From contig DVGV01000054.1 in the NCBI GenBank assembly GCA_018712545.1, positions 1 through 59,217 of the forward strand: a DNA stretch of 59,217 bases. Reading direction: 5' to 3'. A program made the position numbers and the translations under genes. Position 1 is the stretch's first letter. Every line of letters starts with the position of its first letter. Source of the DNA: Candidatus Coprenecus merdigallinarum. Lineage in GTDB: Bacteria > Bacteroidota > Bacteroidia > Bacteroidales > UBA932. A model generated the notes under the pieces. The model saw only the letters and a program-made list of their open reading frames with translations. It was not told the DNA's origin and did not search any database. This document shows positions 2,554-56,915 of the stretch, one piece after another.

Positions 2554-4209
2554 TTACTGATACAGGAACCGCTTGATGCTCTTCTTGGCCGTCTTCTCGA
2601 ATTCCTCGTAGCGGATCTGCACTTTGGCTATCTGGGAATAGGCCGGCAGCTGCTGGTTCAGCTCGAGGCGGTTGGCTTCCATTGCTTTGGCGACGTCCGC
2701 TTCCGTAAGGGAGGATGCATAAGCCTCGTCGAAGTCCGGGAATATCAGCGCCACCAGCTTTCCGTTCCGGAGGATGACCAGCGATTCGGCCACGTAGGGC
2801 ATGTTGTTCAGCCTGTTCTCAATCTCTTCCGGGTAAATATTCTGCCCGGAGGCCGTCAGGAGCATGTTCTTGCTGCGTCCGCGGACCGTGATGCAGCCGT
2901 CGGCGTCCATGGTGCCCAGGTCTCCGGTATGGAGCCAGCCTCCTCTGTCGATGATCTGGGCCGTGGCTTCGGGATTCTTGTAGTAACCCAGCATGGTGTT
3001 GGTGCCGCGGCATACTATCTCGCCGGCGGTACCGGCCGGATCGGGAGACAGGATGCGCACTTCCATCCGTGACGCTGCCCGTCCGCAGGAACCCTGCCGG
3101 AGGGTCTCCCAGCGGCTGGAGCAGATGATGGGCCCGCACTCGGTCATGCCGTATGCGATGGTATACGGGAAGCCTATCTGCCTGAGGAAGCGCTCTACTT
3201 CGGCATTGAACGGGGCCCCGCCTATGATGATTTCATCGAATTGTCCTCCGAATATCTCCATCGCCTCCCTGCGCGCGAAGGCCTTTACCCTGTCGTTGAT
3301 GACCGGCATGCGCAGAAGCAGCTTCCCTATGGTATTGTCCACCCTCGGCAGGATGTTCTTCTTGATGATCTTCTCCACGACAAGCGGAACGCATGAGATC
3401 ACCTTGGGCCGTATCTCCGCGAAGGACTGCGCGATGATCTTGGGCGAGGGCATCCTCGTCAGGAAGTGCAGGTGGGCGCCGGCGGCAAAGCCGTACAGGA
3501 AATCGTAGACCATGCCGAATACGTGCCCGAGGGGCAGCATGGAGACAATATTGTCGCCGGGCTCGACGCGCAGCATCTCCCGGCAATAGTCCACATTGCT
3601 CCACAGACTGCGGTAGGGAAGCATTACGCCCTTGGAATAGCCGGTGGTGCCGGATGTATAGTTTATGACCGCCAGCTCGTCAGGAGAGGCTTCACGCCGG
3701 TAGTGGATGTGCTCAGGGCGGAAATGCTTGGGATAGCGGGCTCCGTACAGGGCGTTACGCTGGCTGTAGGCTTTCCTCAGGGCCTCATTGCGGCAGATTA
3801 TAGTGGAAAAGTCCTCCATCAGCACGATGCATTCGAGCAGAGGCATCGCCGCCTCGTCCAGAGCTTCCCAGGCACGGGCTCCCACAAAGAGCAGTTTCGC
3901 TTCGGAATGGTTGACAATGTGGTGGATGTTGTCCGCCTTGAACTCATGCAGTATGGGCACAATGACCGCACCGTAGGTCACGGTAGCGAGAAAGACGACA
4001 CCCCAGTGGGCGCTGTTCCGCCCGCATACGGCGATCTTGTCGCCTGGACGTATGCCGGCACTCTCGAGCACTATGTGGAACTTGGCTATCTTGCGGGCCA
4101 CGTCCTTGTACTGCAGGGTCACGCCCTTATAATCGGTCAGGGCCTTGCGGTCCCAGTTCCGGACAATACTCCGTTCTATATAGTCAATAAAGGTAGATGC
4201 TTTTTCCAT
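2554..4209 (-). CDS. AMP-dependent acyl-CoA synthetase (long-chain fatty acid--CoA ligase-like)
   Basis: 551 residues, cytoplasmic or membrane-associated, no signal peptide. ANL-superfamily motifs are in order: the P-loop-like YTSGTTGYSKG near residue 183, the adenine-binding AYGMTECGP, LHTGDLG near 424, the hinge GRSKNMLLTASGQNIYP, and a C-terminal KTAKKSIKR carrying the lysine expected for adenylation. It should activate a fatty or other carboxylic acid to acyl-AMP and then acyl-CoA; the substrate cannot be read from sequence. It lies 9 bp after the rRNA methylase gene in a run with speA. A short relic matching the C-terminal end of a related synthetase occurs at 55303-55374. Confidence 0.88.
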   Translation of the reverse strand: MEKASTFIDYIERSIVRNWDRKALTDYKGVTLQYKDVARKIAKFHIVLESAGIRPGDKIAVCGRNSAHWGVVFLATVTYGAVIVPILHEFKADNIHHIVNHSEAKLLFVGARAWEALDEAAMPLLECIVLMEDFSTIICRNEALRKAYSQRNALYGARYPKHFRPEHIHYRREASPDELAVINYTSGTTGYSKGVMLPYRSLWSNVDYCREMLRVEPGDNIVSMLPLGHVFGMVYDFLYGFAAGAHLHFLTRMPSPKIIAQSFAEIRPKVISCVPLVVEKIIKKNILPRVDNTIGKLLLRMPVINDRVKAFARREAMEIFGGQFDEIIIGGAPFNAEVERFLRQIGFPYTIAYGMTECGPIICSSRWETLRQGSCGRAASRMEVRILSPDPAGTAGEIVCRGTNTMLGYYKNPEATAQIIDRGGWLHTGDLGTMDADGCITVRGRSKNMLLTASGQNIYPEEIENRLNNMPYVAESLVILRNGKLVALIFPDFDEAYASSLTEADVAKAMEANRLELNQQLPAYSQIAKVQIRYEEFEKTAKKSIKRFLYQ

Positions 4210-47725: not shown

Positions 47726-47849
47726 ATCGTTGTGTTTATTATGATTTTCACATTCTCAGGCAGAGCCTGAAGCACACCGAAGAAAGACAGTATCATTGTA
47801 TATGAGAGTCATCGCCGGCCCGCCTCTGTTCCCGAAGGCTCACACCTGT

Positions 47850-48030
47850 AATACGACCGGGCAGGTCTTCTGACTCGTTCCAACCGTACGCCTTCCCGTC
47901 ATCACTGACAGTGGCTTTAGAAAGTACGGTCTGCTTACAGAACTTACAGCTACGGGTATAGTCCCTGATTCTCACAGGAGTTCCCTTTTCATCCTCCGGG
48001 ACGGATGTCCCTTCCGGAACCCGATACTTC
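47850..48030 (-). promoter_or_regulatory. Cobalamin (AdoCbl-type) riboswitch upstream of nrdDG
   Basis: On the minus strand the conserved elements appear in order: AAAAGGGAA, GTGAGAATC, the CCCG..CTGTAAG core, GCCACTG, CGGGAAGG and GAGTCAGAAGACCTGC (47861-47876). About 125 bases separate the aptamer end from the nrdD start. Within that gap a 6-bp stem TCAGGC/GCCTGA (47756-47770) could be part of the expression platform. No T-tract terminator is evident, so control is probably at translation, with B12 lowering NrdDG synthesis. Confidence 0.9.
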
Positions 48031-48032
48031 CG

Positions 48033-48040
48033 CAAATATA
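48033..48040 (-). promoter_or_regulatory. Promoter -7 box of the nrdDG riboswitch transcript
   Basis: Minus-strand TATATTTG directly upstream of the riboswitch; no clear -33 TTTG at normal spacing. Confidence 0.5.
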
Positions 48041-51516: not shown

Positions 51517-52694
51517 TTTTCTAATGGTATTAAAGGTTTATGTGTAAATACTATATGCGCAGGTATATCTCCTGTGGTGACGGACCATTTGCGCTTTCCG
51601 TCAGGAGAGAAGCAGTGCAGAGTGCCGGGACTTACATAGTCCTTTGCGTCTGTCACCAGAAACTCTTTTGTCACCGGATGTACCGCCAGTCCGTAAGGTA
51701 CCTGGATATTTTCATCTGTTCCGTCCGTAATGAAGTTGCGGGTCACTACCTCACGTGTAAGAGTATTGAGAATCGCGTAGGAGACTGTCCAGTCGTTGGT
51801 AAGATAGCTGAACTCCGTACTGTAAATGTAGAGAGAGTCTCCGCAGAGGGTCATATTGCTGTTGGGCAGCAGATGAAGGGTATCCGTGCAGATATCCCTT
51901 TCAGTATCAATAATGAAGGTCTTGGAAGGAGTATAATAGTAGTCTCCACGGGATGATACGTACAGGTTGCCGTAGCGGTCGGGCTCGAGACGATGCAGGT
52001 TGATGCCGACCGGAATCTTGTACATCTCACTGAAGTTGACCAGGTCGATCACGGAGACCGTGCTGTCGTAGTCGGGAACGCGGTATCCGCCTGAATTGGC
52101 CACATACAGCTTGTTGCCCACTATGGCCATCTCCTCGGGCTGGTAGCCCACAATGCACGAGTCCACTATTTCCAATGTCGCAGTGTCAATCTTCACGACC
52201 ATGCCGATGCGTGCGTCCGGGTCAATCTTCACCGGACCGGCATACGCGCTGACGTAGGCGTACTGGTCCTTGAAGGCCAGGTAGCGGCAGTTGGGAACGG
52301 CTATCTTCGTTATGTGCTTGACGCTCCGCACGTCCATTACCTCCACGTAGTTGGAGCAGTTGATCACCGCCCACAGCTTGCCGCCGTAGATCTTGATGTC
52401 GTTGCCCACATCTCCCAGATCCTTGACTTCATTCGGGTTACGCTCCCCGTAGATGTTGCGGGTGTACACGCCGGTGGTGTAGTCGTAGTAATCCAGGGAG
52501 GCCTTGTTGCTGCCCATGTTGCCCTCATTGAGCAGGAAGAAGCCGCAGACATCGCCCGAGACAGTGTCCCAGGGATTGACTTCCACCGGCTCAGAGGGCA
52601 GCACAGGGTACTCGCCGCGGCAGCCTGTGACTGCCCATGCGAGCGGAAGTATTGAAATTAGCAGAAAAATGGTCCTGATGTTAATTGTTCTCAT
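51513..52694 (-). CDS. btuG: BtuG-like beta-propeller surface lipoprotein
   Basis: 393 residues from ATG 52694; the longer frame overlaps btuB. Lipobox VTGC. The mature protein is a YncE/YVTN-type seven-bladed propeller (DUF5074-like), with repeats such as KLWAVINCSNYVEVMDV, QYAYVSAY, KLYVANSGG and NLYVSSRGD. In Bacteroides, BtuG sits on BtuB at the cell surface and captures cobalamin with very high affinity. The gene directly follows btuB with a 4-base overlap, the same arrangement. Confidence 0.82.
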   Translation of the reverse strand: MRTINIRTIFLLISILPLAWAVTGCRGEYPVLPSEPVEVNPWDTVSGDVCGFFLLNEGNMGSNKASLDYYDYTTGVYTRNIYGERNPNEVKDLGDVGNDIKIYGGKLWAVINCSNYVEVMDVRSVKHITKIAVPNCRYLAFKDQYAYVSAYAGPVKIDPDARIGMVVKIDTATLEIVDSCIVGYQPEEMAIVGNKLYVANSGGYRVPDYDSTVSVIDLVNFSEMYKIPVGINLHRLEPDRYGNLYVSSRGDYYYTPSKTFIIDTERDICTDTLHLLPNSNMTLCGDSLYIYSTEFSYLTNDWTVSYAILNTLTREVVTRNFITDGTDENIQVPYGLAVHPVTKEFLVTDAKDYVSPGTLHCFSPDGKRKWSVTTGDIPAHIVFTHKPLIPLEK

Positions 52695-54745
52695 ATTGTA
52701 AGGCTTAATGTTATCCTGAAATTGGTGCCGGGCATGGGATACCACTTCACTACCTCGTACTGTTGGTTGAAGATGTTGTTGACCTCCGCAGTAACTCCCA
52801 GGTCCACCTTCTTGATGTGGAAGACCTTGGAGAGCGAGAGGTCGCTGGTGTACCAGGGCTGGATGTAGTTGACTGGCACATTGCCGCCGAGCATGTATCT
52901 CTCACCGGTATAGACGAAGCTGTAGTGGAAGTCCCAGGTCCGGTAGCTGACACTTACGACGGCCGAGCCGCTGTGCAGCGGCACGTAGGGTATCTGGTCG
53001 CCGTAGGTGCTGATGACACCCTCGTATCCCTCGTCCTTCTTGGTGTCGGTGAAGTCCTGGGCCTTCTGATAAGTGTAGTTCAGCCTGGCGGATATATCCA
53101 CCGGACCGAAGCGGAATGAGGGTGTCAGGACTACATCCATACCCCGTATCTCCACGTAGCCCAGGTTGACCATCGTCCATACCAGCTGGTTGGATGTCGG
53201 GGTGGCGATAATCTTGTCCTTCACTGTATTGTAGTAGACGTCCACACTGGCCTGAAGTCCGGCAAACCATGAATAGAAGGCCTTGTGGTATGCGGCGCCC
53301 ACATTGTACTGTGTGGTGTATTCGGGCCGGAGGTTGCGGTTGCCCAGTTGGACGTAGTAGAGGTCGTTGAAGGTGGGCATGCGGAATATCTTCTTGTAGA
53401 AGGCCCTTAGACTCAGGCCGACCCTCTTCCACGGAGTGTAGGATACTATCACCGTAGGGGTCCACTCATTCTTGTCGCCGGCCGTCTCCATGTTCCTTTT
53501 GCTCATATCGTGGACGTAGGTGTAGAGCAGGCTGGCCTGGGCGCTGAGACCGAAGTCGAAATTGACCGAGGTGGCCGCAGCGGAGAGGACGGTCAGCCTG
53601 CGCGGCTGTATGAAATTGGCGTTGAACATCTCCGTACCGTCGGCATCCAGACTGTTCCACTGCAGATCGCAGGAAAGGTTGGCACTCCAGATCTTGCCCG
53701 CTGAGAAAAGATGCGAAGTGGTCAGGTACAGTTCCTGTTGCCAGTAGTGGTTGTCCATCGGCTGGACAGTGCTGTGCGGAGGCATTATGTAGTTCATATA
53801 GTCATTGGCGTACTTGGCCTGCACCTTTAGGCTGTAGAAATCAGCCGCTTTATGCGTCAGGGCCGTCTGCACGAAGATGTTGCGGTCCTTCTGCCGGTCC
53901 TCGTTGAGCAGCGAGATGCCGTAGTCCTTCTTGACCGCCGCACCCGGATAGCCCCTCTCCGACCAGTAGAAATAGCCTTTGAGCATAAAGTCCGTCTTAG
54001 GCATCTGTCCGAACAGGCCTGCCTCCGCACGGACATACATCACATCCCCGTTGCGGCGCACCTCTGTCGTATCGTAGCCTCCGTCCCTCTGATATCGGAA
54101 CTTGTAGCGTCCGGAAGTATTGAGGAACTCTGCATTGACCGAGGTACTGAAATATTTTCCTATGCGGTGCTCCCACAGCCCCGAGAGGTCAATGAGGTCG
54201 AATGAGCCGCTGCGCAGCTTGAAATTCAGATTATTCCCTCTGTCTCCGCTGAACTTCGGCCTCCTGGACACCATGTACAGCGCAGCCGCCGAGGCATAGT
54301 CCCTGGCCGACTGGAAGATATCACTCTTCTGCCCGTTGTACACCGACAGGACTTCCATATTGTCCATGGAGAACTTGCCCAGATCCACCGTCCCGTTCTG
54401 GGCATTGGAAATCTGGATGCCGTCATAGAAGACCCCTACATGCTGACTGCCGAGGCTGCGGACATTGACCGTCTTGAGGCCGCCTATGCCGCCGTAGTCC
54501 TTGATCTGCACGCCCGAAAAATATCGGAGCGCGTCGGCTATCGAATTGGAGCTCAACCGTTGAAGCTGCTCTCCGGAGAGCTTCTGAGCCGGCACGATCT
54601 CCCTTATACGGTCGGCCGTGACCACCACCTCTCCGAGGGTGTCTGCGGGCAGCTCCGGGATTCCGTCCTGGGCCCGGAGTGAAGCTGTCAGCGACAGCAT
54701 GAGCACAATAATAGGTAAAACAGTATCTGCTTTCTTATAGTTCAT
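52691..54745 (-). CDS. btuB: TonB-dependent cobalamin receptor BtuB
   Basis: 684 residues from ATG 54745 (an upstream TTG at 54763 is less likely). Signal peptide ending SLRAQ, then a TonB-box-like stretch GEVVVTADR, the plug domain (LRYFSGVQIKDYGGIGG, NVRSLGSQHVGVFYDGIQ) and a 22-strand-type barrel ending NFRITLSLTI. Without the riboswitch it could be any TonB receptor; the cobalamin riboswitch and btuG-like partner make BtuB the best call. Its start region can pair with the palindrome arm described at 54774-54896. Confidence 0.9.
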   Translation of the reverse strand: MNYKKADTVLPIIVLMLSLTASLRAQDGIPELPADTLGEVVVTADRIREIVPAQKLSGEQLQRLSSNSIADALRYFSGVQIKDYGGIGGLKTVNVRSLGSQHVGVFYDGIQISNAQNGTVDLGKFSMDNMEVLSVYNGQKSDIFQSARDYASAAALYMVSRRPKFSGDRGNNLNFKLRSGSFDLIDLSGLWEHRIGKYFSTSVNAEFLNTSGRYKFRYQRDGGYDTTEVRRNGDVMYVRAEAGLFGQMPKTDFMLKGYFYWSERGYPGAAVKKDYGISLLNEDRQKDRNIFVQTALTHKAADFYSLKVQAKYANDYMNYIMPPHSTVQPMDNHYWQQELYLTTSHLFSAGKIWSANLSCDLQWNSLDADGTEMFNANFIQPRRLTVLSAAATSVNFDFGLSAQASLLYTYVHDMSKRNMETAGDKNEWTPTVIVSYTPWKRVGLSLRAFYKKIFRMPTFNDLYYVQLGNRNLRPEYTTQYNVGAAYHKAFYSWFAGLQASVDVYYNTVKDKIIATPTSNQLVWTMVNLGYVEIRGMDVVLTPSFRFGPVDISARLNYTYQKAQDFTDTKKDEGYEGVISTYGDQIPYVPLHSGSAVVSVSYRTWDFHYSFVYTGERYMLGGNVPVNYIQPWYTSDLSLSKVFHIKKVDLGVTAEVNNIFNQQYEVVKWYPMPGTNFRITLSLTI

Positions 54746-54773
54746 TGCCAAATTATTTTCCAACTCCCGGGAT

Positions 54774-54896
54774 CCTTAGCGTCATATTTGGCAAATCACA
54801 AGGCGTCAAGACTCACAGCGAGGGAGTTTACTGACGTAAATGACTGAGCTGTGATGTCGCAGACAACGCAGTGATTTACCAAATATGACGCTAAGG
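54774..54896 (-). repeat. 123-bp nested palindrome in the btuB leader
   Basis: Outer arms are 54774-54799 and 54871-54896, 26 bases each with one mismatch that is a G-U pair in the btuB-sense RNA (but A-C in the other strand). Inside are TCACAGC/GCTGTGA (54813-54819 and 54848-54854) and TTTAC/GTAAA (54827-54831 and 54836-54840) around a TGAC loop. It lies between the riboswitch aptamer and the start codon. Confidence 0.9.
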
Positions 54897-54898
54897 CA

Positions 54899-54967
54899 GA
54901 CTGTCTGTTCCTGATGAAGAAAAATCATTCAGCATTGCCGCACCCGACTCCCGCAGGGCAGACAGTC
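54899..54967 (-). repeat. 9-bp inverted repeat next to the riboswitch aptamer
   Basis: GACTGTCTG (54899-54907) and CAGACAGTC (54959-54967), loop 51 bases. It fills the space between the aptamer 3' end and the large palindrome and may belong to the expression platform. Confidence 0.55.
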
Positions 54968-54969
54968 AA

Positions 54970-55162
54970 ACTTGAAAGCAGGTCTTCTGACTTATTCCTC
55001 ACAGCGGCAGCCTTCCCACCTTACAAGGCAGTGGCTCAATAGATTACCGCGTGACTTCCGCCCAAAAGGACGTGGAAATTACAGCAGCGGGAACTGTCCG
55101 GGATTCTCACCCGGTTCCCTTTTAATTCCTCCACCGCAGAGCGGCGGACAGGAAACTTTCAG
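54970..55162 (-). promoter_or_regulatory. Cobalamin riboswitch of the btuB operon
   Basis: Minus-strand order: AAAAGGGAACCGGGTGAGAA, TCCCGGACAGTTCCCGC, CTGTAA, GAGCCACTG, GTGGGAAGGCTGCC and AAGTCAGAAGACCTGC (54978-54993). All core elements of the AdoCbl aptamer are present. About 225 bases, including a large palindrome, separate it from the btuB ATG. It should lower BtuB synthesis when B12 is plentiful. Confidence 0.93.
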
Positions 55163-55167
55163 CGGTG

Positions 55168-55198
55168 CAAATATAGACAAACTTCCGTTTTCTCCAAA
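55168..55198 (-). promoter_or_regulatory. Promoter of the btuB operon
   Basis: Minus-strand TTTG (55195-55198) and TATATTTG (55168-55175) spaced exactly 19 bases, the full Bacteroidetes consensus. Transcription would begin at about 55162, at the riboswitch 5' end. The -33 element overlaps the T-tract of the preceding terminator. Confidence 0.75.
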
Positions 55199-55276
55199 AA
55201 AAGAATCACCGGAGGGCCATTGCTAAAACCACCACGGCCGACGACAGATACTGGCCATGAGCCACTCCGGTGATTC
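55196..55276 (-). terminator. Rho-independent-type terminator behind the acyl-CoA synthetase relic
   Basis: Perfect 11-bp arms GAATCACCGGA (55203-55213) and TCCGGTGATTC (55266-55276), then seven T on the minus strand (55196-55202). The loop is long (52 bases), so efficiency is uncertain. It lies 27 bp after the relic's stop codon. Confidence 0.6.
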
Positions 55277-56216: not shown

Positions 56217-56591
56217 TTATTGTAAATCGTGAATAATTTGTCTTACGACATTAAGCATCTGAGGCAAATTGTTTTTAACAACATCATAGACAATCTCCGC
56301 ATCAAGATCAAAATAGTGATGTGCTATTATGTCCCGTATTCCCATAGCACCTTTCCAATCTACCTGAGGGTAATTCTGTAGCAACTGTTTATCGGTAAGT
56401 TTATCTACCCCTTTAATGCTTTCGCCCAAAGCTATTAACAGCATACATGTACTTTCAAGTCTTTCCATGCCGGAAGGACTTGAGGCATAGTACTGATATG
56501 AATTGATTTCAGATGAATTGCCGATAATTCTCTCCAATGTGGTTTCTATCTTCTTCAAAAGATATTCAGTCTGTTTCTTCCTATCATACAT
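56217..56591 (-). CDS. HEPN-family toxin HepT-like (DUF86)
   Basis: 124 residues, all-helical. The HEPN RNase motif RX4HXY is complete: R86, H91 and Y93 in RDIIAHHYF. In MNT-HEPN modules the HEPN protein cleaves RNA and is silenced when the nucleotidyltransferase partner adds AMP groups to the motif tyrosine. It follows the mntA-like gene with an 8-base overlap. Confidence 0.87.
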   Translation of the reverse strand: MYDRKKQTEYLLKKIETTLERIIGNSSEINSYQYYASSPSGMERLESTCMLLIALGESIKGVDKLTDKQLLQNYPQVDWKGAMGIRDIIAHHYFDLDAEIVYDVVKNNLPQMLNVVRQIIHDLQ

Positions 56592-56877
56592 AAATGCTGT
56601 CCTCCATTATATTTTGGCGTAAGAGAGAATCCATATCATCGCGCATGCGGACTATATCGACCTGACACCCGAAAAGCTGCTCCAAATCATCCTTTATATG
56701 AACCATATTGAACATACTGGGTTTGTTAAGACTCACGCAGATATCTACATCGCTGCCCTCAGTCTGCTCGCCTCTGGCTACAGAACCGAATATGCCGATA
56801 CTTGCAATACTGTATTGTATCGCTTTGGCGGCTTTAAACCCCCTTAAAATGCTCAGATATTCGCCTGTAGTCTTCAT
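56584..56877 (-). CDS. MNT-family nucleotidyltransferase antitoxin
   Basis: 97 residues from ATG 56877. The minimal nucleotidyltransferase motif GSX10DXD is complete: G31, S32, D43, D45 in GSVARGEQTEGSDVD, followed by strand VDIVRMRDDMD with the third Asp. It is the antitoxin that adenylylates the HEPN partner encoded next. Confidence 0.88.
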   Translation of the reverse strand: MKTTGEYLSILRGFKAAKAIQYSIASIGIFGSVARGEQTEGSDVDICVSLNKPSMFNMVHIKDDLEQLFGCQVDIVRMRDDMDSLLRQNIMEDSIYV

Positions 56878-56883
56878 ATTTTG

Positions 56884-56915
56884 CAAATATACTAAAATCT
56901 TGTAGTCTTATCAAA
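56884..56915 (-). promoter_or_regulatory. Promoter of the mntA-hepT pair
   Basis: Minus-strand TTTG (56912-56915), 20-base spacer, TATATTTG (56884-56891). It ends six bases before ATG 56877, so the message should be essentially leaderless. Confidence 0.65.

Follow-up and report, generated by a model that had tools for sequence, protein, structure and literature searches.

A MITE-like interspersed palindrome as the probable source of a hairpin in the btuB riboswitch leader of Candidatus Coprenecus merdigallinarum

The 123-bp palindrome in the btuB leader of Candidatus Coprenecus merdigallinarum is very probably an old member of a MITE-like family of interspersed palindromes, one whose hairpin is self-contained, leaves the start codon outside and acts at most as a spacer or insulator. 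What appeared to be an oddity of a riboswitch leads to a family of small palindromes, probably mobile, in metagenome-assembled genome (MAG) records assigned to four phyla. No description of this family was found in the Rfam models searched or among the papers listed by full-text literature searches. The features of the leader within the window (the whole stretch of 59,217 nucleotides that was analysed) are as follows.

52691-54745, minus strand: btuB-like TonB-dependent receptor gene, AUG at 54745-54743 (ORF list)
54745-54753, minus strand: AUUUGGCAA, start region, complement of 9 nt in the proximal arm (sequence)
54774-54896, minus strand: palindromic element, 123 bp, oriented GCTCAGTC...GTAAACTCC on the minus strand, which is the btuB-sense strand
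54774-54799, minus strand: proximal (3') arm, presumed element end (inverted-repeat search)
54818-54849, minus strand: apical core GCTCAGTCATTTACGTCAGTAAACTCC with flanking bases, exact core at 54823-54844
54871-54896, minus strand: distal (5') arm, presumed element end (inverted-repeat search)
54899-54967, minus strand: stem-loop between aptamer and palindrome, in which GACUGUCUG (54967-54959) pairs with CAGACAGUC (54907-54899) (sequence)
54960-55175, minus strand: cobalamin riboswitch aptamer (Rfam RF00174, 104.1 bits, gathering threshold 31.5)

The open reading frame of the receptor gene spans 52691-54763 on the minus strand in the ORF list; the AUG at 54745 was picked by its signal-peptide-like N terminus, and the putative name btuB comes from the first-pass annotation and the riboswitch. 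The leader is 446 nt long, and the coordinates given for its features in that annotation hold. The stem-loop at 54899-54967 is probably the expression-platform stem; by eye, an identical or near-identical stem is found in the other btuB leaders compared. The palindrome lies past this stem-loop and before the ribosome-binding region.

The two 26-nt arms (54774-54799 and 54871-54896) are confirmed as a 96% inverted match, 71 nt apart, and the lone imperfect position is indeed a G-U pair when read in btuB sense and an A-C mismatch on the opposite strand. A 135-nt stretch holding the palindrome folds at -64.5 kcal/mol (z -10.8); this is equalled by none of 200 shuffles, and the structure is therefore not due to chance. 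The G-U pair had been taken as a sign of selection on the RNA. This does not hold for the window copy, as its antisense strand folds slightly better than the sense strand (-67.7 vs -64.5; -66.5 vs -63.4 in a second calculation).

Copies of the element are dispersed. In its own genome, blastn finds it at six places besides btuB (C49, C69, C76, C71, C19 and C52, the last a partial, 33-bp match), and 15 of the 19 genomes of the genus, its own included, contain matches (E up to 0.001). A scan of a contig collection for the core pattern returned 98 stretches, mostly in records titled Candidatus Coprenecus or uncultured Bacteroidales and some in Alistipes; the remainder include Mucispirillum, Oligoflexales, Clostridia and a genome of Oscillospiraceae. 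Almost all of the records in the scan are MAGs, whose individual taxon assignments may be wrong. A looser core occurs in 38 of 295 Bacteroidales genomes and 30 of 183 genera, with up to 56 matches per genome, counted on the core with arms not confirmed match by match; the reversed pattern gave no match in the same 295 genomes. In an even draw over the phylum, two of 395 genomes match, one of them the element's own. The spread is patchy, and one genus may hold both rich and empty genomes (G137 vs G238; G216 vs G309). All pattern searches would pass over copies with a different apex. The first-pass annotation had offered a switch element or a mobile palindrome recruited as one, and had stated that many dispersed copies unrelated to leaders would mark it as an ordinary palindromic repeat. 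Such copies were found in the genome and its relatives; together with target-site duplications (TSDs) in relatives from other genomes, they favour the mobile palindrome, the window's own subfamily being without TSDs.

A phage or plasmid vehicle was considered and rejected. The 123-bp element has no match in plasmids or phages, and two elements from other genomes have none in plasmids; of ten viral contigs with the core, nine look by eye like protein-coding sequence or unrelated coincidences and one (L241) carries a true element.

The scan comprises 101 copies, 96 with full flanks and 66 non-redundant at 85% identity. The apex GCTCAGTCATTTAC-n-GTAAACTCC is constant among them since the search demanded it; independently of this requirement, the core is exact in six of the seven own-genome blastn copies and carries a single change in the other. 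TCGC, CTGCGTTG-like and GCCTTGCA-like stretches, none of them part of the search pattern, keep reappearing in the flanks. The outer arms extend to about -46/+49 from the core; they vary between loci and match within a copy, with a mean score of 23.5 vs 10.9 for swapped partners and a top shuffle mean of 11.6. Across all 66 copies, 86.4% of cells are paired vs 65.5% when shuffled, and the covariation score is 0.507 vs 0.150 shuffled and at most 0.153 for slid versions, under an RNAalifold structure that was derived from 56 of the same copies and so favours itself. That subset, which omits ten copies, several of them badly paired, reaches 88.5% and 0.553. The number of pairs in which both sides have changed does not separate the real copies from shuffles (21 vs 19.9 shuffled; 37 of 500 shuffles as high). 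In the outer arms, A-C outnumbers G-U by 68 to 12; over the whole structure the counts are 62 and 75, and the attempt to read a strand of selection from the outer-arm excess was dropped.

Related copies in other Bacteroidales have transposed: they carry 6-bp TSDs, and near-identical copies stand at unrelated loci in G222. Identical 6-bp flanks border 18 of 30 copies from four other Bacteroidales genomes (permuted mean 3.2, maximum 8 in 200 permutations); this test used near-fixed ends, set after some of the same loci had been viewed. Several offsets were permitted, equally so in the permuted control, and by chance alone about three of the 18 are to be expected. The sites favour TAnnTA, with GAAGTA once. 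An automatic end-finder gives a weak signal in the other genomes (4 of 22 at 6/6 vs 3% in the control), one reason being that a TAnnTA site is itself close to a palindrome. Copies in G222, G132 and G266 start GTGTCTC- or GTGTCTG-like and by eye finish, on the 3' side, with one more inverted copy about 80 nt past the core. This outer inverted repeat passes the score threshold in 5 of 27 copies (G222, G132, G266, G137).

In the window's subfamily, a further inverted repeat beyond the arms is found in only one of 60 copies, and TSDs at 6/6 in 2 of 66 with near-fixed ends (permuted mean 1.3) and 0 of 95 with the automatic end-finder. Since TSDs are present in the relatives and absent from this subfamily, transposition of the btuB copy is inferred from homology and dispersal. 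In the proposed course of events, an element with one apical hairpin, the same across phyla, and long locus-specific arms kept complementary would have moved as its TSD-flanked relatives have done, and a copy would have settled downstream of the riboswitch stem-loop, ahead of the ribosome-binding region. This copy would have stayed intact in three leaders and, judging from scars at other loci, apparently shrunk to a short hairpin elsewhere. In the mRNA it is predicted to fold as its own hairpin and to leave the start region outside.

The family is called MITE-like on the strength of the TSDs in the four other Bacteroidales genomes. Like MITEs, it is short, has no gene of its own that was noticed, is bounded by inverted repeats (the arms) and is found in multiple copies at unrelated loci, near-identical ones in G222. 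Unlike MITEs, its arms differ by locus while the centre is constant; in addition, the window's subfamily lacks a TSD and a parent transposon was not found. In the element loci examined, an autonomous parent element was not found: the only end-pattern pairs spaced by more than 0.6 kb are those of L307, L315 and L319, and these link adjacent elements. In 12 viral contigs with the end pattern, no matching inverted partner was recognised.

A REP-associated tyrosine transposase (RAYT) acting on the element as a REP-type repeat is scarcely credible as the mobiliser. Inside the genus the agreement is perfect: the 15 of 19 genomes with the element are precisely those with Y1_Tnp matches. Among Bacteroidales, an alignment built from the genus RAYTs matches 14 of 18 carriers vs 12 of 20 non-carriers. 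Outside the genus the association fails: Y1_Tnp is present in only 7 of 29 other carrier genomes and missing in 22. The alignment matches the non-carriers G004 and G005, misses the carriers G266 (27 core matches), G123, G322 and G254 and all 12 tested carriers from the contig collection, and finds nothing in 16 of 30 carriers overall. The association fails by neighbourhood too, as 39 of 40 RAYT loci retrieved (of 42 matches) have no core in the retrieved flanks and the one core found is 2.5 kb off. The GT[AG]G tetranucleotide is not seen at the hairpin foot, where the core letters are GTCATTTAC..GTAAACTCC and the reverse strand has GGAG at just one of the feet. Y1 transposition is not known to leave a TSD. 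Several divergent families of RAYT-like proteins of about 300 aa with a long C-terminal part were observed in genus genomes (L173-L212); five of them, when tested, scored 25.7-39.1 bits against NCBIfam NF047646, whose cut-off is 80.

Three other known systems invite comparison. Integron attC sites are imperfect palindromes directly behind a stop codon, with poorly conserved stems and RYYYAAC/GTTRRRY boxes. The element is likewise imperfectly palindromic, right after a stop codon and poorly conserved in its stems; unlike attC, it shows by eye no RYYYAAC/GTTRRRY boxes at its ends, its apex is the conserved part, and no cassette arrays were noticed. ERIC is a palindrome with conserved ends, whereas the ends of the element vary. 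The ERIC and RU repeats of enterobacteria are described as intergenic and about 127 bp long in PMC2759123; the element, compared by description, is an intergenic repeat of comparable length. Like the REP/REPIN sequences with RAYTs treated in PMC3733652 and PMC6006769, the element is palindromic, intergenic, mostly downstream of genes and found in several phyla; in contrast to the 20-40 bp given there for REP, it is about 120-200 bp long. It also differs in having no GT[AG]G foot, relatives with TSDs and no consistent RAYT link.

Copies turn over at fixed loci. Of 18 genomes compared at GDH, 4 have the full element, 7 a scar with the left arm only, 2 some other remnant and 5 no clear trace. At 19 PEPCK loci the element is full in 6, core-deleted or reduced to short remnants in 4 and not seen in 8, with one locus unreadable; at 16 PGK loci it is full in 2, scarred in 4 and not seen in 10. 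The core can also be inverted relative to its flanks at the same locus (L126 and L022 vs L059, L033, L074, L103 and others); the flip in L126 and L022 is an in-place inversion between the arms. At the 3' end of PGK (L252, L257), each arm of the G003 copy is by eye longer than its counterpart in the G010 copy, and the extra stretches match, which gives the impression that one arm was copied onto its partner.

Placement is biased towards the ends of genes. A crude custom gene caller was used to orient the genes around the 66 non-redundant copies. In 49 of them the closest frame upstream runs in the same direction, in 15 it runs in the opposite one and in 2 it is uncalled (49/64, p 2e-5); the downstream frame is random (23 vs 30, 13 uncalled). 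An upstream open frame of at least 100 aa ends near the core in 47 of the 66 copies, and 30 of these 47 stops sit at the edge of the element, 42-52 nt before the core; frames converging from the opposite side are scattered (27 copies, 3 in the same 42-52 nt bin). By eye, four copies begin at an apparent tRNA 3' end (L041, L066, L088, L116). At GDH of the element's own genome, the stop codon is followed by the element and then by an ordinary terminator, and scar alleles of GDH, PEPCK and PGK keep this order. The element itself was rejected as an intrinsic terminator, as by eye no T-run follows it and the ordinary terminator stands further downstream at the own GDH and the scar alleles. In L004, the left arm (about 1475-1489) apparently codes for the final residues of the upstream YggS-like gene (name by eye), whose stop codon falls within the arm. 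This 3'-end placement means that copies can alter mRNA ends.

The codirectional upstream genes, the stops at the element edge and the covarying stems are what would be expected if the family were a functional 3'-UTR RNA, protecting or processing mRNA 3' ends, that also spreads. This is unlikely: among close relatives the copies at GDH, PGK and PEPCK may be intact, decayed or missing, the core has been flipped in place (L126 and L022 vs L059 and others), and the strand preference is unclear, as the A-C and G-U counts differ between the outer arms and the whole structure. The reading as a MITE-like interspersed element is preferred, and its bearing on btuB can be judged from the leaders of relatives.

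Ten leaders of the same btuB were recovered (83-100% identity over a 147-aa query); the other nine genomes of the genus yielded only more distant paralogues. The full palindrome is present in three (G000, G002, G016), and a shorter, different hairpin occupies the same point in seven (G001, G007, G008, G010, G011, G015, G017). The G010 leader is interrupted by a contig end; all nine leaders readable across the site have a hairpin, with differing sequences. The btuB site is a series of the full element and shorter hairpins within one riboswitch leader. Given the deletion scars at other loci, the short hairpins are best read as deletion derivatives of the full palindrome; an older short hairpin may instead have received the element. 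The G015 leader, which keeps the right-arm sequence CCAAATATGACGC with a matching stem, prompted a fold-back insertion model in which arms are copied from the target; this was set aside, deletion being simpler given the scars elsewhere.

The first-pass annotation had proposed a switch acting below the cobalamin aptamer, and as a rival reading this switch would be under the aptamer's control: pairing of the proximal arm with the distal arm would leave the start free, and pairing with the start would mask it. The complementarity on which this was built is real: UUGCCAAAU (54786-54794) is exactly complementary to AUUUGGCAA (54745-54753), including the A of the AUG, and only 27 of 2000 shuffles of the start region reach such a 9-nt complement, a figure that precedes correction for after-the-fact selection. 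By eye, 9 and 8 nt of complement are kept in the nearest kin, G015 and G016; in G015, a close relative without the palindrome, a loop is complementary over 9 nt to its own start, which 34 of 500 shuffles equal. The palindrome also resembles a cobalamin riboswitch expression platform in lying downstream of a genuine RF00174 aptamer.

The switch is nevertheless highly improbable. On a 173-nt segment without the aptamer, the start-masked fold has -38.9 vs -66.6 kcal/mol, a penalty of 27.7, and the masking pair has a probability of about 1e-18; moreover, both arms are transcribed ahead of the start region. The palindrome lies beyond the platform stem, unlike a platform, and seven of the ten leaders lack its sequence, the pairing arm included. 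By eye, UUUGGC(A/G)AUG at the start is conserved across all ten, also in those without the arm, and no comparable complement to the start is seen in G001, G007, G008, G011 and G017. Among eight distinct leaders (G002 counted with G000, G010 with G007), hairpin-to-start complementarity is equalled by 34 to 332 of 500 shuffled starts and is clearly above shuffles in none. A conserved alternative pairing with the start region, as in a riboswitch platform, was not found in these leaders, with G015 and G016 as partial exceptions; the absence of palindrome or start pairing in close relatives, which had been named as grounds for giving up the switch, is true apart from these two. The palindrome does not look like an element that toggles with the btuB start codon or was built as a switch for that gene.

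A looser role may be considered, in which the btuB hairpin has been co-opted as an RNA spacer or insulator that parts the riboswitch stem from the ribosome-binding region; its sequence would be irrelevant and any hairpin would suffice. A hairpin of differing sequence in all nine readable leaders is consistent with this, as are mRNA-strand folds more stable than the antisense in G001 (-12.0 vs -1.5), G007 (-13.7 vs -5.0) and G017 (-31.2 vs -20.2), and G-U pairs that are commoner on the mRNA strand in seven of eight leaders. On the other hand, the antisense strand is slightly more stable in G000, G016 and G015, deletion of a palindrome may leave hairpins anyway (PEPCK scars), other loci have lost the hairpin (GDH, where 7 of 18 have the left arm only), and independent alleles are few. 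The strand-biased stability is a suggestive hint at co-option, which is possible and held tentatively.

A wider reading of the MITE-like family takes the same apex in four phyla, together with arms rewritten at each locus yet complementary, as the mark of a cross-phylum mobile element that is recognised by its folded apex and not by its ends, inserts preferentially right behind stop codons and tRNAs, and can be made into leader hairpins by its hosts, as at btuB. This is a speculative and rather doubtful proposal. For a transposon it is unusual to combine an invariant centre with arms that covary and are specific to each locus, and this combination opens the way it moves to testing.

Rfam covariance models report nothing on the element in the window, nor, at E up to 1, in L001, L002, L040, L054 and L058. 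A sub-threshold match to Gut-1 RNA (29.8 bits vs gathering threshold 50) lies at 3687-3766 on the minus strand of L058, a Clostridia record, about 600 nt from an element copy. The window contains a second cobalamin riboswitch (47843-48039, minus strand), and the palindrome core is absent before the gene behind it; by eye, the N terminus of this gene resembles a ribonucleotide reductase ATP-cone. Just upstream of the btuB riboswitch, a 12-bp inverted repeat with a minus-strand T-run (55203-55276) is probably the terminator of the preceding gene. Neighbouring small genes at 56217-56886 on the minus strand resemble, by eye, a HEPN/MNT nucleotidyltransferase pair.
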